This document shows, piece after piece, positions 6,278-55,138 of a DNA stretch of 64,000 nt. Every line of letters begins with the position of its first letter. Positions within the stretch are counted from its first letter, which is position 1. A program made the translations under genes and the position numbers. The notes under the pieces were generated by a model, which worked only from the letters and a program-made list of their open reading frames with translations, did not search any database and had not been told where the DNA came from. Source of the DNA: Acidilobus sp. 7A (GTDB lineage: Archaea; Thermoproteota; Thermoprotei_A; Sulfolobales; Acidilobaceae); assembly GCF_003431325.1 (NCBI RefSeq), contig NZ_CP010515.1, positions 868,001 through 932,000 on the forward strand. Reading direction: 5' to 3'.

Positions 6278-6292
6278 CGCCAGGACCTCGCC

Positions 6293-6844
6293 TTGGTCAG
6301 GAGGGGCTGGGACTCAGGGCTGGACTTCGAGGAGGCGTATAGGCGAATACTAAACCACATGCTGAGCTCCAGGAGCCCCTATGACGTGGTCCTTCTGGTT
6401 CAACTGCGCAACGGCAGCCGTGTAGGGGAGGCAGTTGAGGCCGTCAGGCAGTTCTGCGAGACTGGCCAGGACCTCGTGCTGGTCAGGGTCGAGAAGCACA
6501 AGGACAATGATGTGCGCCTAATGGTCCTCCCCGAGGAGCTCAGGTCAGGCGAGGGCAGGCAGCTGCTGAGCGAGGCCTGCGCCGCGCTCTCAGCCCTCAG
6601 GAACCCAAAGGCAGCCGTCAAGGTGTACTGCTGCAGGGCCTACGGCTTTAACACTCACGCCCTGAGGTACGCCTTCGTTTCGTACCTTCTGAAGAGGGAC
6701 GTGTCGCCCTCGATAGTCGCCAAGATAACTGGCCACAGGTCCCTCGACCACATCCTTCACTACACAGAGGTCAGGCTCGCTGAGGAGGTCCTGGCTGGCC
6801 TAAGGGGCTGGGGCGCCTCGCCAGCTGAGGGCCAGGCGCCTTGA
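6293..6844 (+). CDS. tyrosine recombinase / integrase, catalytic domain only
   Basis: 183 residues covering just the catalytic half of an XerC/archaeal-integrase protein. The catalytic set is visible: Arg in NGSRVGEAVEA (about 42), HALRYAF (H-x-x-R, about 122-125), GHRSLDHILHYTEV with the third His and the Tyr nucleophile (about 148-157). No N-terminal core-binding domain is present, and the frame is closed by a stop at 6269, so this is either a stand-alone catalytic protein or the int(C) remnant of a split integrase. TTG at 6293 is the first usable start. The 3' two thirds recur, frame-shifted, at 54.4-54.7 kb. A secreted-protein gene follows 63 bp downstream. Confidence 0.85.
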   Translation: MVRRGWDSGLDFEEAYRRILNHMLSSRSPYDVVLLVQLRNGSRVGEAVEAVRQFCETGQDLVLVRVEKHKDNDVRLMVLPEELRSGEGRQLLSEACAALSALRNPKAAVKVYCCRAYGFNTHALRYAFVSYLLKRDVSPSIVAKITGHRSLDHILHYTEVRLAEEVLAGLRGWGASPAEGQAP

Positions 6845-6907
6845 CCTTAGGCTGCAAAACTATATTAACATTTTCATACACAGAAAGTAGCTCGAGGTGC
6901 GGTTCTC

Positions 6908-8557
6908 TTGAGGGCGGCCAGGGCCCTGGCCCTCGTCATTGCCGTCGTTGTATCGGCCTCCCTGCTCGCCGGGCTGTCCTACCTGGTGCCTAGCCTGTTC
7001 CACAGGGGGAGAATCATAATAAGGGCATACGCTATGGGGGGCGACGGAGACCCGACCCAGCTCACCAACGCCTCGTTCTCAGTCTGGGCCTGGGCCCCAG
7101 CGCCCAACGGGACAGAGTTCATCCCAGTCTTCAACGGGACTGGGGCCCAGGCCGTGATAGACCTGAGCAGGTTAGTCAGCTGGGCCGAGGACTGGATACA
7201 TGCTTATGGCAGGGCAGCCATAAGGTCATTTGAGCCATCGATAATCATGTGGGTCTCGTACCCCATAGCCCTGCCCAACGGAAGCGTTGAGCTTTTGACC
7301 CAGCCCTCCTTCCAGCCCCTTAACCTGAGCCTCCCGCTCAGCGGCAACGGGACCATAGCAGTAAACGTGATGGTGAACCACCCCTTCAGGACTCTCCTGA
7401 AGGCAAATGGCAAGGGAGCTGGGATAGCTGTAAGGGGCCTTGGTGAGGCATCGCCAGAGCAGGGCACCGTCACCGTCCCAATAACTACGAGCTTCACGTA
7501 CTGCGGTATGCCTTGCTACCTAGTACCTCACGTCATGTTTTGGTACCCCAACGACACGGGCACGGCCCCCATAAGCCTCGCCGTGGCCCTGGGGCAGCCC
7601 AGCTCTGTTGGTGGAGCAGACGTGGTCATAAGTATAACGGAGTTCTCTCAAGTGGTCAATCAATCCGTTATAAACGGCCTCATGACACCTGGCAGCGCGG
7701 TCGAGGCCGCTACAGGGGAGTACGAAGAGACGGGGAATTTGCCCCAGGTTCTCAGTCAGTTTTCCGTAGAGCTGGAGACCACTTTCACGTTCACGAGTGA
7801 AGGGGAGGTCCAAGAAGGTAACTCCATAGAGGCCTACGTCCCATGGAATAAAGAGCCTGACATAGGCCAGCTCTACATAGTTGGCCAGGCCGCGCTGGTA
7901 AACTGGACTCTGCAGAGTCCTTCAGGCGCGACGGTGGGCTGGTACCTCGGCCTCCAGCTGACGGAGGTTGAGGTCGTGGGGATCGACAACGTCGAGGTCC
8001 CCGTGATCTATAATTGGTGGGCCTACGACCCATGCGTCAACCTGAACGAGTGGGCCTACGAGCAGCAGGTCCTCATGCAGGACCCAGGCGACTTCTATAG
8101 CAGTGAAATTAACTACTCGTGCCCTCTCCCCAACACGCCCGCGCCAGTCATATGGCAGTACTACGCCACGAACCTGACGTATTTTGATATAGTGAACCCC
8201 TACCAGGTATCCTATGCATCCTATGTGGACCTCTCCGTTGGCGTTAACGGGGCCAAGTCGCCCCTGGGCATAGCCATAGACCTTGGCTCGGCCATAGTGA
8301 AGTCTGCAGAACCTGTGGTCTCTCTGGCCTCCTCAGAGGTAGGCGACATTCTAAAGGTGATAGGGGCGCTCCTAGGCTCCTTCCAGTACCAGAGCAACTC
8401 AGTGGCGGTGAGTGTAAACACTATTACAATAAGCAACCCCTACACGAATTATTACGTTAACGTGTACTACAGCGGCCTGACGCCCGTGTACTATACCGTC
8501 GGCGGCCAGAGCTTCACCCTGCCCAGGGAGCTGATACTTATAAACGTGACCTCATAG
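6908..8557 (+). CDS. secreted surface protein of the duplicated element, unknown family
   Basis: 549 residues beginning with TTG. A strong N-terminal signal or anchor (ALALVIAVVVSASLLAGLSY) is followed by an all-beta, sequon-rich ectodomain with no recognised catalytic motif. Cys pairs occur at CGMPC (about residue 198-202) and in DPCVNLNEW and SCPLP, suggesting disulfides outside the cell. A hydrophobic stretch near residues 455-490 could be a second membrane contact. The paralogue at 52522-54278 is similar over its whole length except the segment around CGMPC. The gene follows a recombinase and ends before a terminator hairpin. Possibly a viral or plasmid surface or pilus-like protein, but that is only inference. 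Confidence 0.8.
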   Translation: MRAARALALVIAVVVSASLLAGLSYLVPSLFHRGRIIIRAYAMGGDGDPTQLTNASFSVWAWAPAPNGTEFIPVFNGTGAQAVIDLSRLVSWAEDWIHAYGRAAIRSFEPSIIMWVSYPIALPNGSVELLTQPSFQPLNLSLPLSGNGTIAVNVMVNHPFRTLLKANGKGAGIAVRGLGEASPEQGTVTVPITTSFTYCGMPCYLVPHVMFWYPNDTGTAPISLAVALGQPSSVGGADVVISITEFSQVVNQSVINGLMTPGSAVEAATGEYEETGNLPQVLSQFSVELETTFTFTSEGEVQEGNSIEAYVPWNKEPDIGQLYIVGQAALVNWTLQSPSGATVGWYLGLQLTEVEVVGIDNVEVPVIYNWWAYDPCVNLNEWAYEQQVLMQDPGDFYSSEINYSCPLPNTPAPVIWQYYATNLTYFDIVNPYQVSYASYVDLSVGVNGAKSPLGIAIDLGSAIVKSAEPVVSLASSEVGDILKVIGALLGSFQYQSNSVAVSVNTITISNPYTNYYVNVYYSGLTPVYYTVGGQSFTLPRELILINVTS

Positions 8558-8565
8558 CCTGAAGG

Positions 8566-8620
8566 CTAAGGGGCGCCTAAGCGCCTTAGTGAAACTCTTT
8601 TTCTTCGCTTTCCCCTTTTC
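8566..8620 (+). terminator. hairpin plus T-rich tract after the surface-protein gene
   Basis: Arms CTAAGGGGCGC and GCGCCTTAG around a CTAA loop, followed by CTCTTTTTCTTCG and further pyrimidine runs. The same arrangement is kept in the inverted copy (52480-52515). Confidence 0.6.
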
Positions 8621-8639
8621 GGCGTGAACCTCTAAACCT

Positions 8640-8800
8640 CGTGGCCTCAGCCCGCAGAGACAGAAGTGCCAGGAATCTTACGCATGGGGAGCGCCGTGAA
8701 TGGGGCCCTTGGGCGAGGCGGAGGTCCCTGGGCGCAACTAGTGATCGTAAGCTGACGAGAATGAGCGCCCAGGGACAGACGGCTGGGCGGGCCCTCGAGG
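8640..8800 (+). ncRNA. candidate structured RNA in the tail of the duplicated element
   Basis: This segment is about 90 percent or more identical by eye to 52282-52445 (minus) although it has no conserved reading frame: a +1 and a -1 indel between copies break any frame. Its core is a perfect 12-bp stem, GTCCCTGGGCGC at 8724-8735 with GCGCCCAGGGAC at 8765-8776. The 29-nt loop contains GTGATC and CTGACGAG, which resembles a kink-turn or box C/D-like arrangement, and in this copy ACA follows the stem directly. An H/ACA-like or other guide RNA is conceivable but unproven; no clear promoter of its own was seen. Confidence 0.4.
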
Positions 8801-8854
8801 CGCCTGTTGAGTTCTACGCACGCTTTTGTGCGTACGGCGTAGGGCTCGAGGCGC

Positions 8855-9390
8855 CTAGCGAGCGCCCTGGGCCCTCCTGAACTCCCCCTTCACCGTCTCC
8901 TGGGTCCTCTTGACCTCTCTGTCTATGTCCTCAGGCGTCAGCTGGGCCTGCGTGGTTACTTGGGGCGCCTCGAGGGGCTGGGCCTTGGCGACAGTCTCGT
9001 TAGGGGCAGCCAGGGCGGCAGCCCCCGCCTCCTGGGCCTCGAGCTGCCTCACGTAGCCCTCTAGCCTGTCGGCCAGGGACTGAAGCCTCGCCGCAGCCTC
9101 CCTCACGGCCCTCAGCCAGCCCCTGGCCCGCTCAAGGTCTAGGGAGCCGCTCTCAACCTCAGCGCCTAGCTTGCTGGCGAGGCCGTTGATGTAGTCTATG
9201 AGCCTCGAGCCTGGGCTCCCAGCCTCATAGGCCATGCCCTTCAGCTCTATGCCCATGTCGCTGTGGGTCTTGGTGGCGTACGTGTACTTATCAGGGCCAA
9301 GGTAGCACTTGGTTATCTTCCTCCTGCCGTCCTCCACCTCACGTGGGCGGCGTAGATGTAGGCGCGGCCGTTCACGACCCTGTGTTACCC
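8855..9390 (-). pseudogene. decayed plasmid or integrase-like gene remnant
   Basis: The frame closing at 8855 encodes VEDGRRKITKCYLGPDKYTY followed by TKTHSDMGIELKGM, then a helical, Glu/Ala/Arg-rich C-terminus with a coiled-coil look. The residues just upstream in sequence (GRAYIYAAHV) are in another frame, separated by what looks like a single missing G near 9340, so the gene is broken. The CYLGP segment recalls the N-terminal region of some crenarchaeal integrases or plasmid proteins, from memory only. It abuts the right end of element copy 1, which supports an accessory origin. Confidence 0.5.
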
Positions 9391-9399
9391 CAGCCCGCC

Positions 9400-9790
9400 G
9401 CCTGAGGCTTGCCCTGGTGCTCGTGGGCCCCCACCTCCTGCCCGTCATAGTGCTAGGCGGCGGCTCCGTCTACTTTGTCCCCATGGGCGTCGGAGGCGGC
9501 GCCAAGTCCACCTTCCCCTGCCTTCGCTACCCCAGCGGCAAGTACCTCTGCGCTGGCTCCCCTAGGCTCATTCAGGAGCTCATGGCCTCCACGGGCGGCA
9601 GCCCTCCGAGACCGTGGCCTTCGGCGGCTACGACACCCAGCTAGTTGTAGACATCCCAGGCAGGGGCCTCAGCCCCTATGAGACTGCCCTAGACTTCGCC
9701 CCGCGCCTCGAGCCTGGCGTGCAGCTCTTCGGCAGCGCCCTGCAGTCCTGCCTACGCAGGTGGCACATTACTGATCACGGCAGGCCATAA
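9400..9790 (+). pseudogene. frameshifted remnant of unknown gene
   Basis: One frame gives GGGSVYFVPMGVGGG and AKSTFPCLRYPSGKYLCAG up to about 9600; the continuation, ETVAFGGYDTQLVVDIPGRG and further to a TAA at 9788-9790, is in a different frame. Both parts look coding in composition. I recognise no family. It sits between the element and the S53 protease in a stretch of decayed genes. Confidence 0.4.
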
Positions 9791-46421: not shown

Positions 46422-46460
<39 letters not shown>

Positions 46461-46467
46461 GGTCAGA

Positions 46468-47379
46468 TCAGTCCCTGTTGGCGGCCCCAGCCATGTCTGA
46501 AATAGACCTGAAGCCCATGTAGTCCATGTACTCCGAGAGCCCCCTCCTGACCTCGCCTATTACCTGCAGCCCCCTCCTCACTAGCCCTGAGCCCACCTGA
46601 ACAGCCCTCGCCCCTGCCAGGATCAGCTCGGCCGCATCCTCCCACCTCTCCACTCCCCCAGCCCCCACTATGTCAGGCCTCAGCTCCCTGTAGACCTCGT
46701 AGACCGCCCTGACCGCTATGGGGTGTACTGCGGGCCCCGAGAGCCCGCCTATCCCGTGGCCCAGGGACGGCCTGATGTTGTAGATGTCAATCCTCATAGC
46801 CCTCACGGTGTTTATGAGCGTCAGCCCCCTGGCCCCGGCCTCCAGGGAGGACTCGGCTACCTCAAGCAGCCTGTCCGAGACCCCCAGCTTGGCTATCACC
46901 GGCACCTTAACTGTTGAGGCGACAGCGCTGACCACCCTCCTGCTCATGTCAGGGTCCATACCTATGTCGAGGCCCATCCTCTCCACGTGGGGGCAGCTGA
47001 GGTTCAGCTCAACGGCTGAGGCCCCAGACTCCTCTGCCGCCGCGGCGACCCTAGCGAAGTCGTCAGGCGTGGAGCCGGCCACGCTCACTATAATGGGCAG
47101 CCTGAGCTCCCTCAGCGCCCTCATGTGCTCCCTCAGGCCCTCTATGCCAGGGTTGGCGAGGCCTACCGCGTTCAGTGAGCCAACGTCAAAGTGCACGACC
47201 CTCGGCATTGGGTAGGGCTGCCTGGGGGAGGGCGTGTAGGACTTCGTCACGAGCGCGCTGACCCCTGACCTAGCTATAGCTATCAGGCCGTCCAGGCTCT
47301 CGCCCATTATGCCGCTAGCATTCATAACGGGGTGCTGAAGCTCGAGGCCAGCAACCCTCACCCTTAGGTCAACCCTCAA
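46468..47379 (-). CDS. pyrD: dihydroorotate dehydrogenase (class 1)
   Basis: 303 residues, TTG start. PVMNASGIMG start, SVAGSTPDDFAR, ELNLSCPHVERMG (catalytic Cys in NLSCPH, about 130), VIAKLG, LINTVRAM, GGLSGPAVHPIAVRAV, GAGGVERWEDA and VQVGSGLV FMN-binding motifs. Oxidises dihydroorotate to orotate. An NAD-linked partner (PyrK) is not in the window. Separate transcript from the pyrBIC genes. Confidence 0.94.
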   Translation of the reverse strand: MRVDLRVRVAGLELQHPVMNASGIMGESLDGLIAIARSGVSALVTKSYTPSPRQPYPMPRVVHFDVGSLNAVGLANPGIEGLREHMRALRELRLPIIVSVAGSTPDDFARVAAAAEESGASAVELNLSCPHVERMGLDIGMDPDMSRRVVSAVASTVKVPVIAKLGVSDRLLEVAESSLEAGARGLTLINTVRAMRIDIYNIRPSLGHGIGGLSGPAVHPIAVRAVYEVYRELRPDIVGAGGVERWEDAAELILAGARAVQVGSGLVRRGLQVIGEVRRGLSEYMDYMGFRSISDMAGAANRD

Positions 47380-50137: not shown

Positions 50138-50785
50138 TTAAAAGCTGAGAGGGGGAGTCATGGCCAGCCTCAGGGCGGCCCTGAGGTTCCTGTCCTTGAG
50201 CCTCACGGGCAGCTCCAGGCGGCTGCTGGTGGTGCCGTACTCATCGACAACCTCAAACTGCAGGCCTGCCTCAAGCAGGGACCCGGCGACCTCCTCCCAG
50301 CCCGTGCCCGAGCCCAGGAGCACCCTGTACCTCTCGCTGGGGGCTGCCCTGACGATCCTTGAGACCTCCCTCCCCACGTCGCCGCAGGCGGAGGGGGAGG
50401 CGTGGAAGACCAGGCCGTCAGCTATCGCTGCGACGCCGCAGGCCCTCCTACCTGGGTCGACACCTACCTGGAGGGAGCTGAAGGAGCCCGAGGGGTAGGC
50501 CAGGGCCAGCAGCAGGGCCCTCAGGGGGTCGGGCTCAAACACCTTCGGCCTGCCGTCAACGGCGCCAGCCAGGAGGGCGTACTCCGGCGAGCCGGCGAGG
50601 GGCATCACCGCAACCTCCCAGCTGGAGGAGGGGTCAAACGTGACCCTGACGCCCTGCTGCTGGAGCAGCCACAGCCTACACTTGAGCTCCCTTATGGCCT
50701 CAGGGTCCGCCCTGAGCCAGAGCAGGCTCCTGGCGACCAGCCGCTCACCGCGGCCGACAGGCAAGGGGAGCCTAATAAGGGACAC
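50138..50785 (-). CDS. putative RNase H-fold nuclease (RuvC/YqgF-like)
   Basis: 215 residues, GTG start. After an N-terminal domain, VGVDPGRRACGVAAIADG (first Asp of an RNase H fold), YRVLLGSGTGWEEVAGSLL, FEVVDEYGTTSSRLELP (acidic D-E followed by TT as in YqgF) and KDRNLRAALRLAM (last Asp and helix) come in RuvC/YqgF order. Possible Holliday junction or RNA nuclease. It overlaps the following upstream gene by 14 bp, so they form an operon. Assignment by motif only. Confidence 0.6.
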   Translation of the reverse strand: MSLIRLPLPVGRGERLVARSLLWLRADPEAIRELKCRLWLLQQQGVRVTFDPSSSWEVAVMPLAGSPEYALLAGAVDGRPKVFEPDPLRALLLALAYPSGSFSSLQVGVDPGRRACGVAAIADGLVFHASPSACGDVGREVSRIVRAAPSERYRVLLGSGTGWEEVAGSLLEAGLQFEVVDEYGTTSSRLELPVRLKDRNLRAALRLAMTPPLSF

Positions 50786-51062
50786 TGGAGGGACCTGTCG
50801 TGGCCTGGCTTAGTACGCCCCAATCTATGGCCTCCCTTATGGCAAGGGAGAGGCTTGTCCTGTTGCTCTTTGAGTACCCAAGGTAATCCCTGATGTCCCT
50901 TGAGCTTAAGACGAAGCGCTCCCTGTTCCTTTCCATCCTTGTCTTCTGCAATATCTTGGCAAGAACCCAGACCATGGGCGGGGGCCTTAGCCTACGCCAC
51001 TCCACCTGGGGCTGGAGGTAGCGTGACAGCGGCCCCTGGGGCTCCCCCTGGGGGCTGTACAA
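50772..51062 (-). CDS. small helix-turn-helix-like protein
   Basis: Up to 96 residues from TTG 51062; a later start at the ATG encoding MVWVLAKILQKTR is equally possible. The C-terminal part, RDIRDYLGYSKSN followed by LAIREAIDWGVL, looks like a short winged helix. It is the first gene of a two-gene operon with the RuvC/YqgF-like protein. Family not recognised. Confidence 0.5.
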   Translation of the reverse strand: MYSPQGEPQGPLSRYLQPQVEWRRLRPPPMVWVLAKILQKTRMERNRERFVLSSRDIRDYLGYSKSNRTSLSLAIREAIDWGVLSQATTGPSSVPY

Positions 51063-51187
51063 GAGTGACCGCGGGGGCTGGAGGGGGCCTGGGGCCCTGA
51101 GGAGGGTAATATGACATGCGCGGGCCCATTTATCTGTAGGGCTCCTTTTAGGTGGTAATGTTTAAAGTCCCTGTGTCTATAGCTTAT

Positions 51188-51272
51188 GTGGGAGTGCGTG
51201 GGGGAACGCCTCCGAGGGGCTAGGGGCCTTGCCTTGGGGGGCGCGGGCCCCTAGGAGCCCCTTTTACTTATC
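51188..51272 (+). ncRNA. candidate small RNA with strong hairpin
   Basis: A TATA-like ATGTTTAAAG at 51158-51167 is followed about 26 nt later by a GC-rich stretch. Arms GGGGCTAGGGGCC (about 51215-51227) and GGCCCCTAGGAGCCCC (about 51249-51264) fold into a long stem, followed by TTTTACTTA. No reading frame is convincing. Could be an sRNA or simply a terminator-like hairpin. Confidence 0.35.
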
Positions 51273-51419
51273 CTGCCTTCCTGAGGCGGTCAGGCCATAA
51301 ATGGATTACTTTCACTTTCCTCGCTGGCCTCCCGCAGTCCTCCTCCCCGCGGTCCTAGCACCCGAGCGGAGGTGAGCCGTGAGGGGCGAAGCTTAGCGCG
51401 AGGAAGAGCTGGGGGCTGT

Positions 51420-52150
51420 ATAACCTGTTCAGGAGACATAGAATGCGTCAGTGGAGACGTAAACGTTGTCTCCTGGAGACAGCGGCCCAATCGCCCGCTG
51501 TCTCTGGCATTTGTCCCAGAGACGATGTCCTGCTGAAGACGTCAGGCTCGCTGGGCCGCTGTCTCCGCTATTTGTCTCGGAGACAGAGCGCAGCGGCCCC
51601 AGGGGGCTAGGAGAGGCTACAGGCTGGGCCACAGCATGGCGTAGGAAGCTGTTGCGCCTGGCAGAGACGTAGAGGCAGAGACAGAACCCACATGACAGCC
51701 CTGCCCCGTGTCCCTGAGGCCTGGCCAGGCTGGGCGCAACAGAAAGCTGGGCCATCATATGGCCCAGGTAGGAGCTTCAGCCAGGGGCCTGCGGACACCT
51801 CAACGTGTCCGACGGACACATAGGGCGGACACGCGCCCAATCGGGAGGGTGTCCGTTACGGACACCGTTGTGTCCGCAGCGGACAAGGCGCAGGCTGCCC
51901 GTAGGGATTTGACGGACGGGCGAAGGCCTGCCCCGTGTCCCTGAGGGCCTGTCCCGCACGGGCGCAGCTGCTAGCCGCACCATCATATGGCCCAGCTTGG
52001 AGCCTCACCCAGCGTACAGGGGCCAAAGTGCTGTGTCCCTGGGACACATGCTGGGGACACGCCTCCAATGCGCCCATTTGGCCCTGGGGACAACGTTCTG
52101 TGTCCCCAAAACATGTTTTATGTCCCCAGAACGCTTTCTATGTACCTAAG
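51420..52150. repeat. array of palindromes in about 228-bp diverged repeat units
   Basis: Three related units. The words CCTGCCCCGTGTCCCTGAGG (51700 and 51927) and CATCATATGGCCCAG (51753 and 51981) mark a period near 228 bp. Perfect palindromes fill each unit. Block A uses GTCTC/GAGAC arms: 51467-51481, 51500-51523, 51560-51585. Block B uses GTGTCCG/CGGACAC: 51805-51819, 51849-51865, 51871-51885. Block C uses TGTCCC/GGGACA: 52032-52048, 52086-52107, followed by AAAACATGTTTT at 52108-52119. No convincing gene lies in it. It borders the tail of element copy 2. Either an operator/iteron array or a run of RNA hairpins. Confidence 0.8.
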
Positions 52151-52281
52151 AAAGGAAAGTGAGTATTTCCTATATAAGAAACCCGCGCGTGCCCCCTACG
52201 ACGTCCCTGGCCTAGCTGGGCAGGCCCTGAACCGCAGGGAGGCCTAGCGTCATACGCACAAATTTGGACGTTAAGCTCAAT

Positions 52282-52445
52282 AGGCGCCTCGAGGGCCCGC
52301 CCAGCCGTCCGTCCCTGGGCGCTCATTCTCGTCAGCTTATGATCACCCTCGCGCCCAGGGACCTCCGCCTCGCCCGCAGGGCCCCATTTATGGCGCTCCC
52401 CATGCGTAAGATTCCTGGCACTTCTGTCTCTGCGGGCTGAGGCCG
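52282..52445 (-). ncRNA. candidate structured RNA, second copy
   Basis: Counterpart of 8640-8800. The 12-bp stem is fully kept: GTCCCTGGGCGC at 52311-52322 and GCGCCCAGGGAC at 52351-52362. The loop keeps GTGATC and CTGACGAGAATGA on the minus strand; the base after the stem is changed from ACA to ACG. Differences from copy 1 fall mostly outside the stem. Confidence 0.4.
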
Positions 52446-52521
52446 AGGTTTAGAGGCTCATGCCGAAAAGCGAAGAAAAAGGGTTTCACTAAGGCGCTTA
52501 GGCGCCCCTTTGGCCTTCAGG

Positions 52522-54278
52522 CTATGAGGTCACGTTTATAAGTATCAGCGCCTTGGGCAGGGTGAAGCTCTGGCCGCCGATGGTATACACGGGTGTCAGG
52601 TTGCTGAAGTATACGTAAACGTAATAATTCGGGAGGGAGTTGGTTATTGTAATAGTGTTTACGGTCACTGCCACCGAGTTGCTCTGGTACTGGAAGGCGC
52701 CGAGGAGCGCCCCTATCACCTCTAAGACAGCGCCTGCCGCCTGTCCCCCTGGCAGCACCATAAGGCCCGTACCTATAATCGACGCTATGGCAGAGCCCAG
52801 GTCAAGGCCTATGCCCAGGGGCGACTCGCCCCCGTTAACGGAGAGGTCCACGTAGGATTTATAGAGTGACGTGTTAGGGTTCACCGTAGCGTAATACGTC
52901 AGCTTCGTGGCGTAGTCCTCCCATATGACTGGCGCTGGCGTGTTGGGGAGCGGGCACGTGGCGCCACCCCCACCACCCCCAGGGGGGTGCGCAATGAGGT
53001 CGCCTGAGAGCCCAGGGGGGTCGCCTGGGTCCTGCATGAGGGCCTGCTGCTCGATGGCCCACTCGCTCAGGTTAACGCACGGGTCGTAGGCCATCCAATA
53101 ATAGATCACGGGGGCCACTGCGCTGCTGTTCTCCACCGCCTTAAACTCCGTCAGCTGGAGGCCGAGGTACCAGCTCACTGGCGTGTTGGAAAGAATCAGA
53201 GGCAGCAAGTACGCCGTCCAGTTGACCAGCGCCACCTGGCCAACCATGTAGAGCTGGATTATGTCAGGCCCTTTCTCATTTTGCAATGGGATATAGGCCG
53301 TTGTGCCGTTACCTTCTGCGACCTCTCCTTCAGTCGTGAACGTGAACGTGGTCCCCAGCTGCGGGGAAAGCTGGCTGACGGCCTGGAACAGGTTCCCCGT
53401 CTCCTCATAATCGTCCGTAGCGGCGTCGAACGCGCTGCCAGCTATCATGAGGCCGTTTATAGTGAACTGCTTGATCTTTTCAGAGGCCACCGTTATATCT
53501 ATGGTCACAGTTGGACTGGTATAGCCTTCGCTAACACTGCTGGGCTGCCCCAGGGCCACTGCGAGGCTTATGGGGGCCATGCTCTCGTTGTTGGGGTACC
53601 AAGCAATGACGTGGGGTACCAGTAAGAGATCGATAGGCATATAGCAGATGGGGCAAGCGTATGGCGGGCGCGTGGATGAGGTTGTGGTTATATTAGTTAG
53701 CGTGGTGGTGACCGTCGTCGTTGTGGTCTGCTCTGGCGACGCCTTAGCGAGGCCCCTCACGGCCACCCCAGCGCCCCGCCGCTGGCCTTCACGAGGGTCC
53801 TGAAGGGGCTGCCCACCACCACGTCTATCACTGCCCCGCTGCCGCTGAGCGGGAGGCTCAGGTTAAGGGGCTGGAAGGAGGGCTGTGTCAAAAGCTCAAC
53901 GCTGCCGTTGGGCAGGGCTATGGGGTATGAGACCCAAATTGTTATCGAGGGCTCAAAGGAGAATATGGCCGCTTTGCCGTATGTGCTTATCCAGTCCTCG
54001 GCCCAGCCGACCAGCCCGCTCAGGTCTATCACGGCCTGGGCCCCAGTCCCGTTGAAGACAGGGATGAACTCAGTCCCGCTAGGCGTCGGGGCCCAGGCCC
54101 ACACTGAGAACGAGGCGTTGGTGAGCTGGGTCGAATCCCCGTCGCTCCCTATAACGTATGCCCTTATTATGATTCTCCCCCTGTGGAACAGGCCAGGCAC
54201 CAGGTAGGACAGCCCAGCGAGCAGGGAGGCCGATACAACGATGACGAGGACGAGGGCCAGGGCCCTGGCCGCCCTCAA
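52522..54278 (-). pseudogene. paralogue of the element surface protein, frame-broken
   Basis: The first 173 residues (TTG 54278, same signal peptide) stop at 53757; the remaining 414 residues continue in the -1 frame. Copy 1 has one more base at the equivalent place, so a G is missing in the run at about 53773-53776. The segment after the break differs strongly from copy 1: a Thr-rich linker, then CPICYMP instead of CGMPC. A proline/glycine insertion (HPPGGGGGGA) is also specific to this copy. Elsewhere similarity is high up to the shared LILINVTS end. Confidence 0.75.
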
Positions 54279-54379
54279 GAATGCCGCACCTCGAGCTAGT
54301 TTCTGTGCGAAAAGGGTTAATTATAGTTTTGCGGCCCTCTAAGTCAAGGCGCGTCCTGGCCTTCAACTGGCAAGGCGCC

Positions 54380-54666
54380 TCGAGCGAGCAGCCATCGTTT
54401 TCCACAAGCTTGTGGAAAACGGCGCCCCAGCCCCTTAGGCCAGCCAGGACCTCCTCAGCGAGCCTGACCTCTGTGTAGTGAAGGATGTAGTCGAGGGACC
54501 TGTGGCCAGTTATCTTGGCGACTATTGAGGGCGACACGCCCCTCTTCAGAAGGTACGAAACGAAGGCGTACCTCAGGCGTGAGTGTTAAAGCCGTAGGCC
54601 CTGCAGCAGTACACCTTGACGGCTGCCTTTGGGTTCCTGAGGGCTGAGAGCGCGGCGCAGGCCTAG
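54380..54666 (-). pseudogene. recombinase remnant in element copy 2
   Basis: Equivalent to codons from about 93 of the 6293 gene onward: the KVYCCRAYGFNTH part is in one frame; after a one-base deletion (CACGCC-TGAGG) the rest, SPSIVAKITGHRSLDYILHY, is in another. The normal C-terminus is replaced by sequence holding a 24-bp palindrome. DNA upstream of 54666 is unrelated. Confidence 0.75.
54397..54420. repeat. perfect 24-bp palindrome inside the copy 2 recombinase remnant
   Basis: Arms GTTTTCCACAAG and CTTGTGGAAAAC, no spacer. Absent from copy 1 at the same place, so it is an insertion or a recombination trace. Confidence 0.7.
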
Positions 54667-54757
54667 TGGATCGCACGAGCAACGACGCCAGGGCCTCAGC
54701 AGCCTCTCCAAGAGGGCCCTCCACAATTAGTTGATAATATAATACTATAAAAGAACT

Positions 54758-55138
54758 TCATTGATGTGAAAATGATTCAGCCCAGTTCCTGCCGCTCATG
54801 TGGCCTACCAGGAGGGTCACGAAGCCCGCCATGCCGTTGTCGCCGAGCCTGTCGAGCAGCCATCTCAGCCTCTCGAGCTGCTGACTTAAGTCGCCGCTGG
54901 CGCTCACGAAGTCCTGGCCAGCGAACAGCCTCACCGCCCTCGCCCCTATGGACTTCACGGCTCTTATGTCCAGTACGGCCCCCTCGTCCCAGCCCCTCCA
55001 CATCCTCACGTTAGTCTTCCTTGGCCAGCATTTGACCCCGAGGGGGAACTTGAAGGAGCCGTCAGTAAGCGCCAGGCCTCCCCTGGCCTCAGTCCTCAAG
55101 GCCTTCCCCAGGGACGTGGGAGCCCCAGCGTAAAACAC
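54758..55138 (-). pseudogene. truncated glycoside hydrolase N-terminus
   Basis: The frame gives FPLGVKCWPRKTNVRMWR, AVKSIGARAVRLF and MAGFVTLLVGHMSGRNW and then runs out at 54758. This is the N-terminal piece of a TIM-barrel glycosidase (GH5/GH2-like, recalled), with the catalytic barrel missing. The cut lies next to the end of element copy 2, so a rearrangement there probably destroyed the gene. Confidence 0.6.

Follow-up and report, generated by a model that had tools for sequence, protein, structure and literature searches.

What kind of sequence keeps a crowd of palindromes whose arms change together from one block to the next? The question is raised by positions 51420-52150 of the window, that is, the whole stretch of 64,000 nucleotides of Acidilobus sp. 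7A analysed here. The initial annotation had described several perfect palindromes per unit and one arm word for each block, and this observation held. Counting perfect inverted repeats with a minimum arm length of 7 bp and a spacer of no more than 12, we found 12 in these 731 bases, whereas 300 dinucleotide-preserving shuffles contained 0.73 on average and never more than 4; when the same count was slid along the whole 64 kb, the densest 731-bp intervals were those of the array region. A census of half-sites of the form GTC[C/T]N on both strands gave 29 of them, with GTCTC in 11 of 14 in block 1, GTCCG in all nine of block 2 and GTCCC in all six of block 3, and the observed mutual information between word and block was reached by 0 of 100,000 permutations of the words over the blocks.

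The three blocks are as follows. Block 1 (51420-51690, minus strand) contains the palindromes TGTCTCCTGGAGACA (51467-51481), GAGACAGCGG..CCGCTGTCTC (51476-51504), GTCTCTGG..CCAGAGAC (51500-51523) and CTGTCTCCG..CGGAGACAG (51559-51586). In block 2 (51697-51925, plus strand) the word occurs mostly as GTGTCCG, and the dyads are GTGTCCGACGGACAC (51805-51819), GGTGTCCGTTACGGACACC (51848-51866) and TGTCCGCAGCGGACA (51871-51885). Block 3 (51924-52150, plus strand) holds the dyads TGTGTCCCTGGGACACA (52032-52048) and TGGGGACA..TGTCCCCA (52085-52108). In most of the tight dyads the spacer is 1 or 3 nt long, and single direct copies of the half-site are present beside them. The region had been described as three homologous units of about 228 bp. 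This is right for blocks 2 and 3, which are direct copies (51697-51841 against 51924-52069, 73% identity at a spacing of 227-228 bp), but block 1 is an inverted copy relative to both, since homologues match it on the opposite strand, so that the units are not three in head-to-tail order. Likewise, the arm words had been given as GTCTC, GTGTCCG and TGTCCC; one word for each block stands, but the core that switches is only five letters long and the remainder of the arm is more variable. In block 2 information is high across GTGTCCG and low in the flanks, a sharp boundary that is to be expected for a binding word. Outside the switching words, each unit has a conserved marker segment (CTGGGCCATCATATGGCCCAG, 51747-51767), with homologous segments in block 3 and in three related loci, L009, L010 and L011. 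At the downstream end of the unit there is an AT-rich stretch with TATATAAGAAACC (52128-52185); its lowest GC content over 50 bp is 32%, where the surroundings average about 61%. Stretches like it also come after the arrays of L009, L010 and L011, and the four loci range over 24-32% GC in 50 bp. A CRISPR array or simple tandem repeat was rejected, as the only tandem repeat detected has 2.5 imperfect copies of 20 bp. Short reading frames cross the array, and the indels between the aligned blocks probably make a conserved frame unlikely.

When the units are aligned, each of them has, after its dyad, a third half-site that is directly repeated and lies 13 bp past the right arm. The three slots read TGTGTCCC/GGGACACA/GGGACAC in block 3, GTGTCCG/CGGACAC/CGGACAC in block 2, TGTCTC/GAGACA/GAGACA in block 1 and TGCGTCCC/GGGACGCA/GGGACGC in the left copy of L009, where a fourth word, GCGTCCC, is changed at the three aligned half-sites; this word is also present in L011. 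Thus three distinct letter changes are each present at all three aligned slots. Exact permutations over seven units gave p=0.0008 for the co-variation of the left arm with the third half-site (a-c), p=0.03 for a-b and p=0.02 for b-c, values that are rough and indicative only, as the seven units are related sequences. The coordinated change of the arms claimed at the outset is real and includes the directly repeated half-site, but L010, L011 and the right copy of L009 mix GTCCC, GTCCG, GTCCT and GTCTC. Within the window the blocks are strongly uniform; the family as a whole does not follow this as a rule, and a constant enforcement of uniformity is less easily claimed. In the L009-L011 comparison, conservation was 94% in the half-sites and 93% in the rest of the array.

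The array is followed by the body of a decayed element (52239-54664, minus strand), paralogous to positions 6573-8847 of the window (79%) and to 557.2-559.5 kb of the same genome (G000:C1; 82%). Its gene for a large protein, predicted to be secreted or membrane-bound (52522-54278, minus strand), is broken here into two frames (414 and 173 aa) and is a single frame of 549-575 aa in two paralogues; the protein matches no known family. Next to it lies what remains of a tyrosine-recombinase catalytic domain (54347-54662, minus strand), split by frameshifts into three pieces; its family was assigned from intact paralogues. The window contains the element a second time (6290-9448), there with no array but with the recombinase (6293-6844, plus strand), the secreted protein (6908-8557, plus strand) and a truncated zinc-ribbon gene (8855-9448, minus strand). 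The catalytic domain PF00589 was found above the cut-off (E 1.7e-7) in L021 and at 6293-6841 of the window; the recombinase also matches phrog_9208 (E 8e-29) and is 31-39% identical to the integrases of the viruses ATV, ATSV, SMV1 and STSV. At five loci of the genus the zinc-ribbon gene has recombinase fragments in its vicinity, and in L009 inverted copies of about 640 bp, 78% identical, lie one on each side of that gene. The 64-kb window has a single tRNA, at 24.0 kb, none adjoining the array, and no flanking direct repeat was found in 51000-52600. The array belongs to this decayed and repeatedly duplicated mobile element.

The small zinc-ribbon protein (motif CPRCG...YYYAVH...CYLGP) is encoded by the better copies of the element. 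At two loci, L009 and L011, the array stands directly upstream of the zinc-ribbon gene, with first the AT-rich stretch and then a palindrome in between; the gene is absent beside the array of the window and beside that of L010, and in L021 it is present without this array. Searches of Pfam, NCBIfam and PDB gave no match that shows DNA binding by the protein, which received no family assignment, and none of the plasmid and phage records encodes it. Between two divergent zinc-ribbon genes of L021 (5175-5510) there are three copies of a palindrome-like word (CTCTTAAAATTAGGCGTAAG, CACCTAATTTTAGGAGT and CTCCTAAAATTAGGCGTAAG), which may be another candidate gene-specific site.

The element also carries a second palindrome family, built of two arms of 8-10 bp around a 6-bp AANNTT-like centre and adjoining the recombinase and zinc-ribbon genes. 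The window contains the perfect 26-bp palindrome CGTTTTCCAC AAGCTT GTGGAAAACG (54396-54421), the only member with an 8/8 arm pairing in the 64 kb; other sites are found in L009 (7070 and 10472), in L010 (three sites) and in L011 (7195). The arms of this family, too, differ symmetrically between loci. When site 7070 of L009 was aligned with site 7195 of L011, the centre was AACCTT in the former and AAGGTT in the latter, with identical arms and otherwise identical flanks; such a flipped centre would fit either site-specific recombination or template switching, as a spacer inversion. In shape, the family resembles the core site of a tyrosine recombinase or the operator of a dimer. In several other genera and families, zinc-ribbon genes have AAATTT-centred palindromes nearby, sometimes on both sides, with arms that differ by genome: TTTCCMCAG-AAATTT-CTGKGGAAA in G045 (L076), TGCACCAC-AAATTT-GTGGTGCA in G178, GTCCAT-AAATTT-ATGGAC in G043 and G119, and TTTTCCACAT-AAATTT-ATGTGGAAAA in G068, while the congener G001 has the forms CTTTCTGC and CTTTCCGC. 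Across the order, palindromes of this kind, 16-26 bp long, lie by small CPRCG zinc-ribbon genes at 1143 and 1596 of L076 (G045:C6), 3550 and 4103 of L024, and 1826 and 2331 of L061; further positions by such genes are 1340 and 1455 of L064, 1238 of L066 and 6418 of L085. A zinc-ribbon gene with palindromes on both sides gives the impression of a cassette delimited by palindromic sites.

The distribution of the array units is narrow. DNA searches located homologous units in the same genome, at about 96.7-98.1 kb and 706.4 kb of G000:C1, and in the congener, at 41.4-41.6 kb of G001:C12. A sequence model of the unit recognised seven clear units in G000 (eight matches including a degenerate one, besides a weak overlapping match on the antisense strand within the array). 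The initial annotation had suggested a search for further blocks in other genomes: among 214 genomes of the order the congener did provide one unit, but otherwise there was one marginal match (E 0.008). Units with E below 1e-5 are thus found in two of the 214 genomes, both of which have the zinc-ribbon gene. It should be noted that the G001 assembly has gaps at related repeats, where array copies may be missed; an apparent recombination junction at a palindrome, between L010 and contig 10 of G001, was discarded as the break in homology is a run of N. The dyad GTGTCCNNNGGACAC, allowing one mismatch at most, occurs six times in the 1.54 Mb of G000, always inside these arrays, once in G003 and not at all in G001 or G002; this confinement implies that the sites serve no genome-wide regulator with the same strict site. 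The unit model found no array in the relatives G002 and G003, and the viral contigs searched with the unit pattern and the zinc-ribbon profile gave no match. G003 is the closer relative (82% at ubiD), yet it lacks the array, and its homologues of the flanking genes, ubiD and the Mrr-like gene, are located at 1.349 and 0.733 Mb, that is, 0.6 Mb apart, which identifies the array region (50772-54781 of the window) as a synteny breakpoint. Furthermore, the identity between G000 and G001 is 85% in the array and 91% in the zinc-ribbon gene, compared with 73% in ubiD and 75% in the Mrr-like gene. Such a difference between two species fits lateral movement, and the array and zinc-ribbon locus would have moved recently.

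Taken as a whole, the region is probably, with a good deal of room for doubt, a cis-acting DNA-binding (docking) array of a family of small integrative elements of this archaeal genus, whose word evolves in concert. About 30 short half-sites, in tight dyads and single direct copies beside an AT-rich stretch, would be occupied together by a sequence-specific protein, with one dimeric protein for each word. We infer that the binder is most plausibly the zinc-ribbon protein of the element itself, which is the leading candidate in view of its position, its paralogy and its association with palindromes. Once occupied, the array could act as an operator in autoregulation, in a nucleoprotein complex controlling partition or replication, or in an accessory complex of recombination, functions that the data do not separate. 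If the preference of the protein shifted, the whole block would have to follow, as all its half-sites would be read by a single protein. Different words in neighbouring blocks would mark the sites of diverged copies joined by duplication and inversion; this best explains three adjacent words, and L009 directly shows such inverted copies. A change of DNA-binding specificity, one of the two explanations offered initially, is favoured. What speaks for the docking array is the density and block uniformity far beyond chance, the sharp limits of the block 2 word, the direct half-sites that change along with the inverted ones, the confinement of the units and of the dyad, the gene order of L009 and L011, the signs of lateral movement, and the recombinase fragments and other palindromes close to zinc-ribbon genes. 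Against it, the dyad spacing, 1 or 3 nt, is not fixed, several homologous blocks mix words, conservation between L009 and L011 is no higher in the half-sites than elsewhere in the array, array and zinc-ribbon gene each occur without the other at some loci, and no match of the zinc-ribbon protein shows DNA binding. In a bolder version, which we consider possible but rather unlikely, a zinc-ribbon family travelling on recombinase-associated elements would have a fast-shifting word, and each lineage would rewrite its own array symmetrically, leaving a fossil series in one genome, comparable to incompatibility types or to the fast-evolving DNA-binding specificities of eukaryotes.

Iteron arrays have many copies of one word beside an AT-rich stretch, and related plasmids differ by a word that is changed in all copies. 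The array is like them in its many short direct and inverted copies beside such a stretch, and unlike them in that its half-sites of 5-7 bp stand mostly in tight dyads, that three words share one locus and that no initiator gene was recognised. With the arm and core sites of tyrosine recombinases it shares the neighbouring catalytic domain, related to the integrases of bicaudaviruses and large spindle viruses (31-39%), and the second palindrome family, with its two inverted arms of 8-10 bp around a 6-bp centre, is shaped like a core site; in contrast, the recombinase copy of the window is broken, there is no adjacent tRNA target and the sites are far more numerous than the usual sets of arm sites. 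That L009 and L011 have the array ahead of the zinc-ribbon gene, and that paralogues have other palindromes upstream, recalls the autoregulatory operators of element repressors, the zinc-ribbon protein being the putative repressor, but a typical archaeal operator has far fewer sites. Centromere-like clusters (ParB-parS, archaeal SegB sites) are also palindromic sites grouped in non-coding DNA, unlike the array in that here the words switch between blocks.

The main rival, which the initial annotation had not named, does without selection. Polymerase template switching between nearby inverted copies could perfect palindromes and spread letters, so that words would drift and remain uniform within about 200 bp. 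This process is reported to make the arms of inverted repeats alike and to turn their spacers round (PMC8604942, PMC8794818). It predicts the local homogenisation that is seen, and the exchange of AACCTT for AAGGTT between L009 and L011 looks like a spacer inversion. Nevertheless, copied tracts should end variably, whereas the words of block 2 stop sharply at 7 bp within random flanks; the direct half-sites follow as well, for which several successive switches would be needed; and it leaves unexplained why the array is restricted to a single element family, why the spacers measure 1 or 3 nt and why an AT-rich stretch lies alongside. We give it a modest chance as the explanation, and it may well supply mutations even if selection keeps them. 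More doubtful is the origin of an integrated plasmid, a special form of the docking array in which the half-sites would be iterons, the AT-rich stretch the unwinding element and the zinc-ribbon protein the initiator. Repeated words beside a stretch of 24-32% GC at four loci, and multiple coordinated word variants that resemble iteron incompatibility types, speak for it, but no replication protein was recognised in the element, the zinc-ribbon protein is in no plasmid or phage record, and the AT-rich stretch may be simply a promoter.

RNA hairpins, the other explanation offered initially, fared poorly, and we regard a transcribed array whose arms form hairpins kept through compensatory changes as very unlikely. 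The array does fold better than its shuffles whichever strand is taken (z -4.5 and -4.8), and a TATA-like sequence adjoins it, but symmetry and folding are equal on both strands, with no strand preference, and the 1- or 3-nt spacers of most tight dyads are too short or barely enough for a loop. In addition, the mismatches of the imperfect palindromes (19 G.T against 20 A.C) show no G.U bias on either strand, no Rfam family matches the array (a single weak match in 48-56 kb lies elsewhere), and the third, direct half-site changes together with the dyad. A chromosomal replication origin was suggested by a cdc6/orc1 gene in the same window (about 22.8-23.1 kb); this gene is about 28 kb from the array, a second cdc6 gene is found at the start of the sequence, and the array is missing from the relatives G002 and G003 and sits at the synteny breakpoint. 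As it is neither next to cdc6/orc1 nor conserved in relatives, we rejected this highly improbable reading.

If the words are binding sites, as the docking array supposes, the locus would record several completed changes of specificity, one genome preserving the old words as well as the new; the candidate binders would be paralogues in the same genome, and the joint change of a protein and dozens of its sites could be tested by ordinary binding assays. If template switching alone were responsible, the array would show plainly, in nature, how motifs can evolve symmetrically without selection, and would caution against taking compensatory changes as proof of function.

Other repeats and gene pairs accompany these loci. 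A HEPN/nucleotidyltransferase gene pair lies beside the palindrome cluster of L010 (8290-9068), with two copies in L035, and is duplicated in G001. At 46422-46470 of the window, a dispersed repeat of 36-38 bp, TTTACAACTGAAAGCCTCGCCTTT.AAGGCGGGGAGGAGGTCAGATC, corresponds to the joined two ends of a TnpB-type element of L021 (6281-6316 and 7676-7716), and looks like a solo end or an internally deleted copy of such an element. When GTCCCNGGGAC was followed across the relatives, most of the other matches in the genus proved to be copies of an unrelated dispersed repeat about 225 bp long. In L025, L026, L027 and L028 (63.6, 68.1, 74.6 and 1096.5 kb of G000:C1), L029 and L031 we observed a dispersed repeat of this length, with 87-96% identity and hairpin-like sequence; there are at least four copies in G000 and two in G001.
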